Positions 31,298-33,521 of a stretch of 33,521 bases of DNA are shown piece after piece. The translations under genes were made by a program, and so were the position numbers. This DNA comes from Sphaerobacteraceae bacterium. GTDB lineage: Bacteria; Chloroflexota; Chloroflexia; Thermomicrobiales; Thermomicrobiaceae. The notes beneath the pieces were generated by a model. That model was not told the DNA's origin, made no database searches, and worked only from the letters and a program-made list of their open reading frames with translations. Location: assembly GCA_007695115.1 (NCBI GenBank), contig REEK01000066.1, forward strand, positions 1-33,521, given 5' to 3'. The number at the start of each line of letters is the position of its first letter. Position 1 is the stretch's first letter.

Positions 31298-31488
31298 CCG
31301 GAGAAACGAGGCAGCAATCGATCCAGACCTCGCTCTGTAGTAGGCTCAGCGGCACAGACTTTGCAGGAAATAGAGTGATAACCGGGGCAAGAAACGCCTT
31401 TGCACAACCCGGTTTAATGTTATTACTGATGAATACGACGAGATTCACCACACGCTGGTGCAGAATCCGAATAACTATTGGAGGCGAA

Positions 31489-32388
31489 ATGGCAAGTCAG
31501 GTCGAAAAAACCGGAATGACTCCGGAGCAGAAATTTGGGCTGGCCGTTGGTGCCGGATTCGCACTGGCCGGTCTTGCGGTTTCCGTTTTCCGCAAGAAAC
31601 AGCAGAAGACCCCGGTTCAGCAGACGGCTGACAAGATTCTGGAGAACCCTTCGCTGAAGGCGCTTTACAGTGCGGCGAAAGATTCGCTGGACGAAGCCAA
31701 GGGCAAGGTCGATCCCAAGACGATTGAAGCCGCGAAGGATCAGATTGCCCGACAGCGTGTCGAGATCCCGGCGAAGTGGCAGTCTGATATTGAGCCGGCA
31801 GCTCGCGATATGGCCAGCCGTGCGCTCGCAGCCGTTGAACAGATTCGCAGCGAAGGCTCGGACAAGGGCCGCGAACTCGGCAAGCGATGGGAAAAAGACT
31901 TCGCACCGGCAGCGAAATCGTTCGCCGACGAAGCGCTCCAGGAAGCTGACGAGATTCTGACGGCAGCACGGAAGAAGGCCGTAGAGATCTCCGATACAGC
32001 ACGCAAGGACTACCTCACACAGCTCGGCCCTATGGCGTCGTCCGCTTCGGCAGCCATCGCCGAGGCCGTATCCGATGGCTCTGACAAGGTGTCCAAGTCA
32101 GTCAAGAACATCGACGTCCCCGATGTCTCGATGCCGAAGGGTGCCAGCAAGCCGAACATCCTGAAGCGCACCGGTCAGGGCGCAAAGGACGTCACCAGCC
32201 AGGTGCTGATGATCGGCTTCTGGGGTGCGGCGCTCGGTACCGTGGTCTACTACGGAATTCTCGATGAAGAGAAGCGCACCCGAGTGCGGAACTTCTTCAC
32301 CGATACCTGGGAGCAGGTCACCGAGTTGATCGAAGATTTCCAGGACGATGACATCTTCGACGACGAAGAGACCTCAGAGCGCTTCTAG
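31489..32388 (+). CDS. Helical membrane-anchored protein, YtxH-like, function unknown
   Basis: The 299-residue protein starts MASQVEKTGMTPEQKFG with a hydrophobic helix at about 14-31 (LAVGAGFALAGLAVSVF) followed by RKK. A long polar region, rich in Ala/Glu/Lys/Asp and with helical apolipophorin- or LEA-like character (residues about 40-225), follows. Near the C-terminus is a second hydrophobic segment at about 241-257 (VLMIGFWGAALGTVVYYG), followed by YtxH-like charged sequence ending in an acidic patch (DFQDDDIFDDEE). I do not know its function; YtxH-like proteins are stress-linked in Bacillus. ATG at 31489 follows GGAGG with standard spacing; the open frame back to 31375 lies over the mnmG promoter region. 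A terminator follows the gene. Confidence 0.72.
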   Translation: MASQVEKTGMTPEQKFGLAVGAGFALAGLAVSVFRKKQQKTPVQQTADKILENPSLKALYSAAKDSLDEAKGKVDPKTIEAAKDQIARQRVEIPAKWQSDIEPAARDMASRALAAVEQIRSEGSDKGRELGKRWEKDFAPAAKSFADEALQEADEILTAARKKAVEISDTARKDYLTQLGPMASSASAAIAEAVSDGSDKVSKSVKNIDVPDVSMPKGASKPNILKRTGQGAKDVTSQVLMIGFWGAALGTVVYYGILDEEKRTRVRNFFTDTWEQVTELIEDFQDDDIFDDEETSERF

Positions 32389-32412: not shown

Positions 32413-32440
32413 GCCCGGGTTGGAACGTACCAACCCGGGC
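32413..32440 (+). terminator. Rho-independent terminator after the YtxH-like gene
   Basis: GCCCGGGTTGG (32413-32423) pairs perfectly with CCAACCCGGGC (32430-32440) across a 6-nt loop, followed by ATTTCC. It begins 24 bases after the stop codon. Confidence 0.8.
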
Positions 32441-32497: not shown

Positions 32498-32563
32498 AGT
32501 AATGAGTTAGTGCAACAACCCAGTCAACTTCGACGCCGAGCACGCAAAGGGATACTCGCACAC

Positions 32564-33521
32564 ATGACTGAATTCACGGCACTCCGCACAGGCCTGTCAT
32601 TTCCCGCATCAGATGTGTCAGCATTGAGTCCGAACTCAGCTGACCTGGACCTGGTCAGTCTCGACCAGACGACAGAACAGAACCACAATGCTGACCCGTG
32701 GACGCTCGCCAACTGGCTGGCCGCGACAACAACCGGGGTCGAGATCATGATCCCGATTCCTTCAGACCAGCTCCAGTACCCGGCGGTCCTGGCTAGAGCC
32801 GCAATCAGCAGTGATCTTCTGTCGGGCGGTCGCGTTGCCCTGAACATGGGATCGGGAACAGAGTCAGCCGATCAACTCGCCGCAGCCATCCAAATTCTCC
32901 GAGAGATGATGAACGTGGCTAATCGGCGTCCCCTAGAGACCTCCGGCAGCTTCTACCGAGTGGAAGGAGCGCAGCGGGGTCCGATTCCAACTCGCGACAT
33001 CCCGATCTGGATCACCGGAGCTACGCCGGAATTGCTCCAACTGACTGGTCAGCTGGCTGACGGCTGGACAACGCCATATCCGGACATGCCTGCCCGGGAC
33101 CTGATCATCGCCAGCGAATTCATCGATGCCGTCGCCATCGAGTCTGACCGTGATCCGGAAGAGATCCAACGCTCGATGATCATCAGTGAAAAACAACTGG
33201 ATGGGTCGATCGATGATCTCACGGACGCGCTGATCCGGGCCCGCATCGGCACGATCCTGCTTCAATCCGCCGATGAGCACCAGATCGATACCTTCCTGAA
33301 CCAGATCGCGCCGGAACTGCGCTCCCGGTTGGAATCCGCAGACCCGGACCGAAGTTCGACCCGTCGGGTTCGTCGCGCTGAAGTCCGGAAAAAGCGAATT
33401 CCTGGCATCGACTACGACGGTGTTCCTGAGTCCTTAAAGAACGCCGTCATCGAACCAGGTGACGTTGCGTACCCGCGAGTTCGGTCGACCTACATACGCG
33501 GCGGGGCTCCGGGAATCGTGC
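32564..33521 (+). CDS. Luciferase-like monooxygenase domain fused to a FAD-linked oxidase domain (partial, runs off the right edge)
   Basis: The frame is open from ATG 32564 to the window end (319 codons). Residues about 55-250 match the flavin/F420-dependent luciferase-like (LLM) family: YPAVLARAAISSDLLSGGRVALNMGSG, GSFYRVEGAQRGPIP and IPIWITGATPELLQLTGQLADGW. The first barrel strands are shortened relative to normal LLM enzymes. After a basic linker (RRVRRAEVRKKR), the sequence VIEPGDVAYPRVRSTYIRGGAPGIV matches the beginning of berberine-bridge/FAD_binding_4 oxidases. The rest lies beyond the window. An AAAGGGA lies 11 bases before the ATG. The substrate is unknown. Domain order is read directly; the oxidase assignment rests on about 30 residues. 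Confidence 0.75.
   Translation, partial: MTEFTALRTGLSFPASDVSALSPNSADLDLVSLDQTTEQNHNADPWTLANWLAATTTGVEIMIPIPSDQLQYPAVLARAAISSDLLSGGRVALNMGSGTESADQLAAAIQILREMMNVANRRPLETSGSFYRVEGAQRGPIPTRDIPIWITGATPELLQLTGQLADGWTTPYPDMPARDLIIASEFIDAVAIESDRDPEEIQRSMIISEKQLDGSIDDLTDALIRARIGTILLQSADEHQIDTFLNQIAPELRSRLESADPDRSSTRRVRRAEVRKKRIPGIDYDGVPESLKNAVIEPGDVAYPRVRSTYIRGGAPGIV

Follow-up and report, generated by a model that had tools for sequence, protein, structure and literature searches.

The last gene of a contig from a Sphaerobacteraceae bacterium raises the question of what a luciferase-like monooxygenase (LLM) does when it is joined in one chain to a FAD-linked oxidase. The window is the whole stretch of DNA analyzed, 33,521 nucleotides of contig REEK01000066.1 (assembly GCA_007695115.1). 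A preliminary description of its final gene had proposed an LLM domain with a shortened front end, a basic linker, and the start of a berberine-bridge-like FAD domain, and had left open whether the chain performs a two-step oxidation or carries an inactive LLM used for binding. The fusion itself, the conserved flavin-attachment His of its relatives, the loss of motifs in the window, purifying selection, and the intact LLM adjacent to the fusion in relatives are all read from sequence. Our preferred reading, plausible if not quite probable, is a His-linked FAD oxidase whose noncatalytic, LuxB-like LLM barrel tethers a separate and intact LLM.

The Fusion Gene and Its Relatives

Translation of positions 32564-33520 gave 319 aa with no stop (Table 1). 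An alternative GTG start at 32510 is likewise open; compared with the start of the homologue G005, ATG 32564 lies ~6 codons inside and GTG 32510 ~12 codons outside (hand count). The contig (G000:C18) terminates at 33521 and limits the FAD domain in the window to its first ~39 aa, so the domain was read in relatives instead. The remaining FAD domain was not found at high identity on other contigs of the window's genome (best match 37%), and the missing part was therefore probably lost to a gap in the assembly. The open reading frame directly before the fusion gene (31375-32388) is charge-rich, and hydrophobic stretches occur both close to its beginning and further on toward its end. After it comes a self-complementary, terminator-like stretch at 32413-32440 (matched on both strands).

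Table 1. Layout of the fusion gene at the end of the window
Feature	Position	Strand	Basis or remark
LLM-FAD oxidase fusion gene, 5' part (319 codons)	32564..33521	+	open at contig end
Degenerate luciferase-like (β/α)8 barrel, aa 7-259	32582..33340	+	PF00296; model with eight strands
Lost QDH motif site, here DQT, aa 34-36	32663..32671	+	alignment with fused and stand-alone LLMs
Helix α3, aa 73-90; best-kept stretch in degenerate fused LLMs	32780..32833	+	conservation comparison
GSGT (aa 96-99), remnant of the GAGxFW...MGG active-site loop	32849..32860	+	~16 aa shorter than in G005
Basic linker, aa 259-280	33338..33403	+	sequence; mostly low model confidence
FAD-linked oxidase domain, first 39 aa (GIDYDGVPE...)	33404..33521	+	95% identity to L033 over 38 aa

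A Thermomicrobiaceae metagenome-assembled genome of the same genus (G002, locus L033) carries a homologue with 90% identity over 172 aa (window aa 148-319). There, the chain continues, the 575-aa reading frame matching both FAD_binding_4 (108 bits) and BBE (23.9 bits against a cut-off of 20.6), and a stand-alone LLM follows the fusion. With PF00296 in the window and the FAD domain completed in this relative and in full-length homologues, the proposed fusion, its berberine-bridge-like character, and the predicted downstream continuation were all borne out. The basic linker is also present (aa 259-280), with pLDDT below 50 at aa 264-278 in the structure model. The shortened front end stood only in part: with ATG 32564 as the start, ~6 aa are missing at the N terminus and 2 aa in α1 relative to G005, but the effect is small; the front is mainly divergent, and larger deletions lie further in, at the β4-α4 and β7-α7 loops.

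All six full-length fusions scanned (L034, L005, L035, L036, L043, and L013) contained PF00296 and FAD_binding_4 above cut-off; BBE exceeded its cut-off in four and fell just below it in L035 and L013. Ktedonospora, Kineosporia, six Herbidospora, two Nocardiopsis, and Nonomuraea carry full-length fusions, as do further genomes from the order to which the window belongs; the carriers span two phyla, Chloroflexota and Actinomycetota. Within the class, the search returned 18 of 158 genomes, to which the window's own genome was added separately (hand count), its fragment falling below the E limit of the search; contig ends cut five of these 19 fusions (G000, G002, G010, G021, and G047). Across the phylum, 9 of 400 sampled genomes matched at E ≤ 1e-110; two of these matches are FAD-only forms and one is an LLM-only form. 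Chance or a frameshift artefact as the source of the fusion is ruled out by its recurrence in 19 genomes of the class, in Actinomycetota, in a Ktedonobacterium, and in Nonomuraea. Candidate LLM fusions at the opposite end (L069, L070, and L071) turned out to be long open frames in which a single Pfam domain was recognized.

Several loci show other arrangements. On a plasmid of Streptomyces sp. NBC_00316 (L122:4580-7936), the LLM and the FAD oxidase are encoded separately by genes that share four bases, followed by a flavodoxin-fold, FMN reductase-like gene and accompanied by a divergent HxlR regulator; this pair is possibly an unfused form of the same system. A divergent HxlR regulator was also found at L034. 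In G470 (L109:5627-6748), an intact LLM is present and the FAD domain is cut off just after its start, with no FAD remainder found within the 12 kb read. In Nonomuraea gerenzanensis (L123), an intact LLM precedes the fusion; the 11.85-Mb record is labeled "plasmid I", has ten annotated features, and looks like a chromosome. No conserved neighborhood or biosynthetic cluster emerged, as no family recurs among 20 neighboring genes from 11 loci (called as longest open frames; eight gave no Pfam family). Among the papers listed by searches of open-access PMC, none was seen to concern an LLM-FAD oxidase fusion.

The FAD-Linked Half

The gene product is predicted to be a berberine-bridge/EncM-type oxidase with covalently bound FAD and an N-terminal luciferase-like barrel. 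Among PDB entries, the FAD domain matches EncM best in sequence (207 bits), and EncM is also the best fold match of the Ktedonospora FAD model (Z 36.8, 420 residues, rmsd 2.7); after EncM, the domain is nearest to McrA, berberine-bridge enzyme (BBE)-like enzymes, and 6-HDNO. The preliminary description had pointed to His and Cys flavin attachment as a check on the full domain, and only the former appeared. The 8-α-histidyl attachment His is present in 34/34 family rows (fragment G021 left out), the window's own His position lying beyond the contig end, and the 6-S-cysteinyl Cys of the bicovalent BBE subgroup occurs in 0/34.

The position of EncM Thr139 (O2 pocket/N5-oxide) is Val in all 34 rows. 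Six of the 10 FAD paralogues used as outgroup share this Val, which is therefore not special to the fusion. Oxidase activity of EncM T139V is reported in an excerpt of PMC7662398, and this, together with Val at the gate, favors an O2-using oxidase over an N5-oxide oxygenase; the FAD half is more likely an ordinary oxidase of the former kind. It would oxidize a small organic molecule by hydride abstraction and, as the gate Val suggests, be reoxidized by O2.

The LLM Half

PF00296 (Bac_luciferase) matches window aa 37-204 (73.9 bits, cut-off 27.9), and the predicted structure of the window LLM is a full barrel with eight strands (pLDDT 75.5). Its best fold matches are Mer, SfnG, and FGD (Z 25.7-24.2), with 238 residues aligned to 8qpl (Z 25.7, rmsd 2.1). 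Within this barrel, the window copy has DQT for QDH, a GSGT remnant for the GAGxFW/MGG loop, and deletions of ~16 aa at the β4-α4 loop (hand count against G005) and ~11 aa at β7-α7. As aligned, the window LLM lacks the motifs expected of a catalytically competent member of its subfamily, and it would no longer be an enzyme.

The window is not alone in this. QDH and MGG are lost in 11 of 30 fused LLMs, the window included, and QDH is kept in the other 19. An alignment of 29 fused LLMs separated 19 with QDH and a G(A/S)G loop from ten with neither QDH nor MGG (the window, G001, G031, Ktedonospora, and six Herbidospora), with Nonomuraea as the eleventh. The GAGxxW loop is lost in nine of the ten; Ktedonospora keeps GAGTLW and GPSAQW. 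Departures among the 19 QDH keepers are Kineosporia, which has no GPxxxW loop, and G028, with LGVPR for MGG. QDH is present in all 22 neighboring stand-alone LLMs scoring above 150 bits, a set that omits L059:14201-14959 and L061:379-1407 (68 and 74 bits).

These counts bear on the two-step option of the preliminary description, in which a still-catalytic fused LLM would pass its product to the oxidase within one chain. It draws on the 19 of 29 fused LLMs that retain QDH together with a G(A/S)G loop, if not all of the motifs, and on 6 of 16 readable intact fusions that have no other LLM alongside. For the window, it is improbable, given a copy without QDH and without most of the GAGxFW/MGG and β7-α7 loops. 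Two chemistries in one chain may nonetheless hold for those 19. The second option, an inactive LLM used for binding, fits the window copy better because its active-site motifs are lost while the fold and purifying selection remain.

An Intact LLM Beside Degenerate Fusions

An intact (QDH) stand-alone LLM adjoins the fusion in 11/11 degenerate cases with readable surroundings, so that an unequal LLM pair, one inactive and one active, is encoded together in every one of these relatives. G002 was counted among the 11 from the visible C-terminal part of its LLM; the window is unreadable in this respect and was excluded. The 19 intact fusions comprise seven beside an LLM of the same subfamily, three beside another LLM, six without an LLM, and three left unclassified (G021 and G045, which lie at contig ends, and G470, whose FAD domain is cut off). 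The difference in adjacency between degenerate (11/11) and intact (10/16) fusions gave a Fisher p of 0.054, or 0.016 when the three beside another LLM were omitted. Only three independent pairs fell on supported branches, so the phylogeny neither supports nor refutes a link between degeneration and the neighboring gene.

An active site lost, a fold kept, and an intact copy next door in relatives suggest that the fused half may be a docking partner. In the proposed mechanism, it would pair through its kept helix α3 with the separately encoded intact LLM, much as LuxB pairs with LuxA. Such pairing would keep the active site of an LLM that uses FMN or F420 close to the oxidase, so that the two could act in succession on a single substrate. 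Where relatives have no extra LLM gene, the fused LLM, which keeps its active site, would do the same job in one chain.

The history of the decay was read from trees of the two halves. The LLM tree groups ten degenerate LLMs (99/97), with the window and G031 as long branches. A single origin is contradicted by the FAD tree, which rejects one degenerate clade for both ten forms (p-AU 0.0048) and eleven (1.3e-5). It also rejects a clade of Ktedonospora, G001, and G002 (p-AU 0.0186) but does not reject the grouping of Herbidospora with G031 (p-AU 0.41). Starred branches force at least one change or at least three, depending on which of two analyses is taken; G021 was left out of the eleven-form FAD tree and of the tree used for independent pairs. 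We attribute the grouping in the LLM tree to long-branch attraction, although recombination or transfer is also possible. Because the FAD tree does not unite the degenerate forms, decay probably happened more than once.

Repeated decay, as implied by the rejection at p-AU 1.3e-5, also suits a different account, in which the fused LLM is an evolutionary leftover: a second LLM gene took over, and the fused copy decays and aids only the folding or solubility of the oxidase. Outright deletion points the same way. The FAD oxidase of G403 (L107:4382-5884) is preceded by an LLM relic of only ~15 aa, with a more distant LLM alongside, and that of G355 (L108:4709-6091) retains the linker only, its LLM domain deleted; no LLM of the same subfamily was found in G355 at E ≤ 1e-60. 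The domain is therefore dispensable in these two genomes.

Selection and Conservation in the Fused LLM

Substitution rates speak on both sides of the leftover account. In its favor, the fused LLM of G001 and G002 has diverged faster (dN 0.56 over 133 codons) than the FAD domain (0.16) or the stand-alone LLM (0.26). Against it, purifying selection persists: dN/dS between the window and G002 is 0.185 over 108 LLM codons (0.082 over 39 FAD codons), and the fused LLM gives 0.18-0.35 in 15 Herbidospora pairs. Nor is the LLM dN between the window and G002 higher than that of the FAD start, the two being about equal (0.051 and 0.049). By these codon comparisons, the remaining LLM domain is under purifying selection.

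Conservation within the domain is uneven. Degenerate LLMs retain 0.80 of the intact consensus at helix α3 (five-lineage mean), and with Nonomuraea added, the α3 window stands at 0.81 against a mean of 0.42; the preservation of one helix above the rest also argues against a mere leftover. The α3 value was reached in any window by 11 of 5000 conservation-matched column shuffles, a test that flatters α3 because it ignores the linkage of neighboring columns. The second best-kept window is IDEAARAAGRDPREI (0.75), and the best window of the individual lineage is at α3 in four of six, lying elsewhere in G031 and Herbidospora daliensis. The divergent neighbors G007, G018, G019, and G403 were included in the motif alignment and left out of the conservation consensus. 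Helix α3 is, we assume, part of the luciferase/LLM dimer interface. An excerpt of PMC4631483 reports conservation of the LLM dimer throughout the superfamily, whereas the MsuD passages of PMC8234197 assign dimerization to the barrel core and a pair of insertion segments. We consider the leftover account unlikely in itself, and it ranks close behind the LuxB-like partner.

The least conserved parts are the pocket loops, where degenerate LLMs keep 0.05 (β4-α4), 0.20 (β3-α3), and 0.24 (β2-α2) of the intact consensus (five-lineage means). They matter for a further possibility, that the altered barrel is a sensory or substrate-binding domain that controls the oxidase through binding of the substrate or of free flavin. 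A kept fold under selection with strongly altered pocket loops would suit such a domain, but the loops that line the pocket keep the least of the consensus (β4-α4 and β3-α3 above all), and we regard this explanation as the most improbable of those considered.

FMN or F420

The preliminary description had allowed flavin or F420 chemistry and named F420 biosynthesis genes as a check, which did not support F420 use. The window LLM falls below the NCBIfam cut-offs of F420 subfamilies (TIGR03560, 63.4 of 231.4; TIGR03619, 62.0 of 166.9). In the window's genome (98.5% complete assembly), CofD and CofE exceed their cut-offs, but for FO synthase, CofG gave no match and CofH only 20 bits, which makes F420 use doubtful. 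CofD was discarded as a marker of F420, as it also matches 10 of the 14 genomes used as controls, among them E. coli. Over cut-off among 24 carrier genomes are CofE in 20, CofG in 5, and CofH in 4; 16 of the 24, including G000, have CofE over cut-off without CofG. Apparent synthesis of the F420 tail without a recognizable FO synthase suggests FO uptake or another FO-making enzyme. The safer guess is that the intact LLMs of the window's genus use FMN, unless FO is taken up from outside or comes from an unrecognized enzyme.

Comparison with Known Systems

The LLM and FAD oxidase families are each known; what is unusual is a conserved chain that joins both in two phyla and in which the LLM has probably decayed more than once. 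Unfused pair, intact fusion, fusion with a decayed LLM plus a separate LLM, and fusion with the LLM deleted form a natural series in which one can test how a fused enzyme becomes a binding module.

EncM, the flavin-N5-oxide enzyme of enterocin synthesis (VAO/PCMH fold), shares with the fusion its FAD-domain match and the position of the His-attached FAD. It differs in that the matched EncM chains have no LLM, in the replacement of its Thr139 by Val throughout the family, and in its context, as no polyketide genes were seen among the 20 fusion neighbors scanned (8 without a Pfam family). Berberine-bridge-like oxidases (6-HDNO, GOOX, and Phl p 4) share FAD_binding_4 and BBE, whereas the fusion has an N-terminal LLM and no 6-S-cysteinyl Cys. 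Structure entry titles describe Phl p 4 I153V as an oxidase variant, a likeness to the gate Val of the fusion family, whose position we take to correspond to residue 153. Mer, FGD, SfnG, and RutA, as F420- or FMN-dependent LLMs, have PF00296 and the barrel in common with the window LLM, which differs by the absence of motifs kept in intact homologues and by its scores below the F420 subfamily cut-offs.

The closest parallel to the proposed partner is LuxA/LuxB. Luciferase α and β are described in excerpted text of PMC8508739 as homologous barrels, probably derived by duplication, with the active site in α. A catalytic and a noncatalytic LLM side by side recall the gene pairs of the degenerate relatives; the difference is that here the inactive LLM is fused to a FAD oxidase and the pairing is only proposed. 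It is conceivable, though we think it unlikely, that LuxB-like arms arose repeatedly outside bioluminescence, recruiting an active LLM to a covalent-FAD oxidase as a modular two-flavin assembly.
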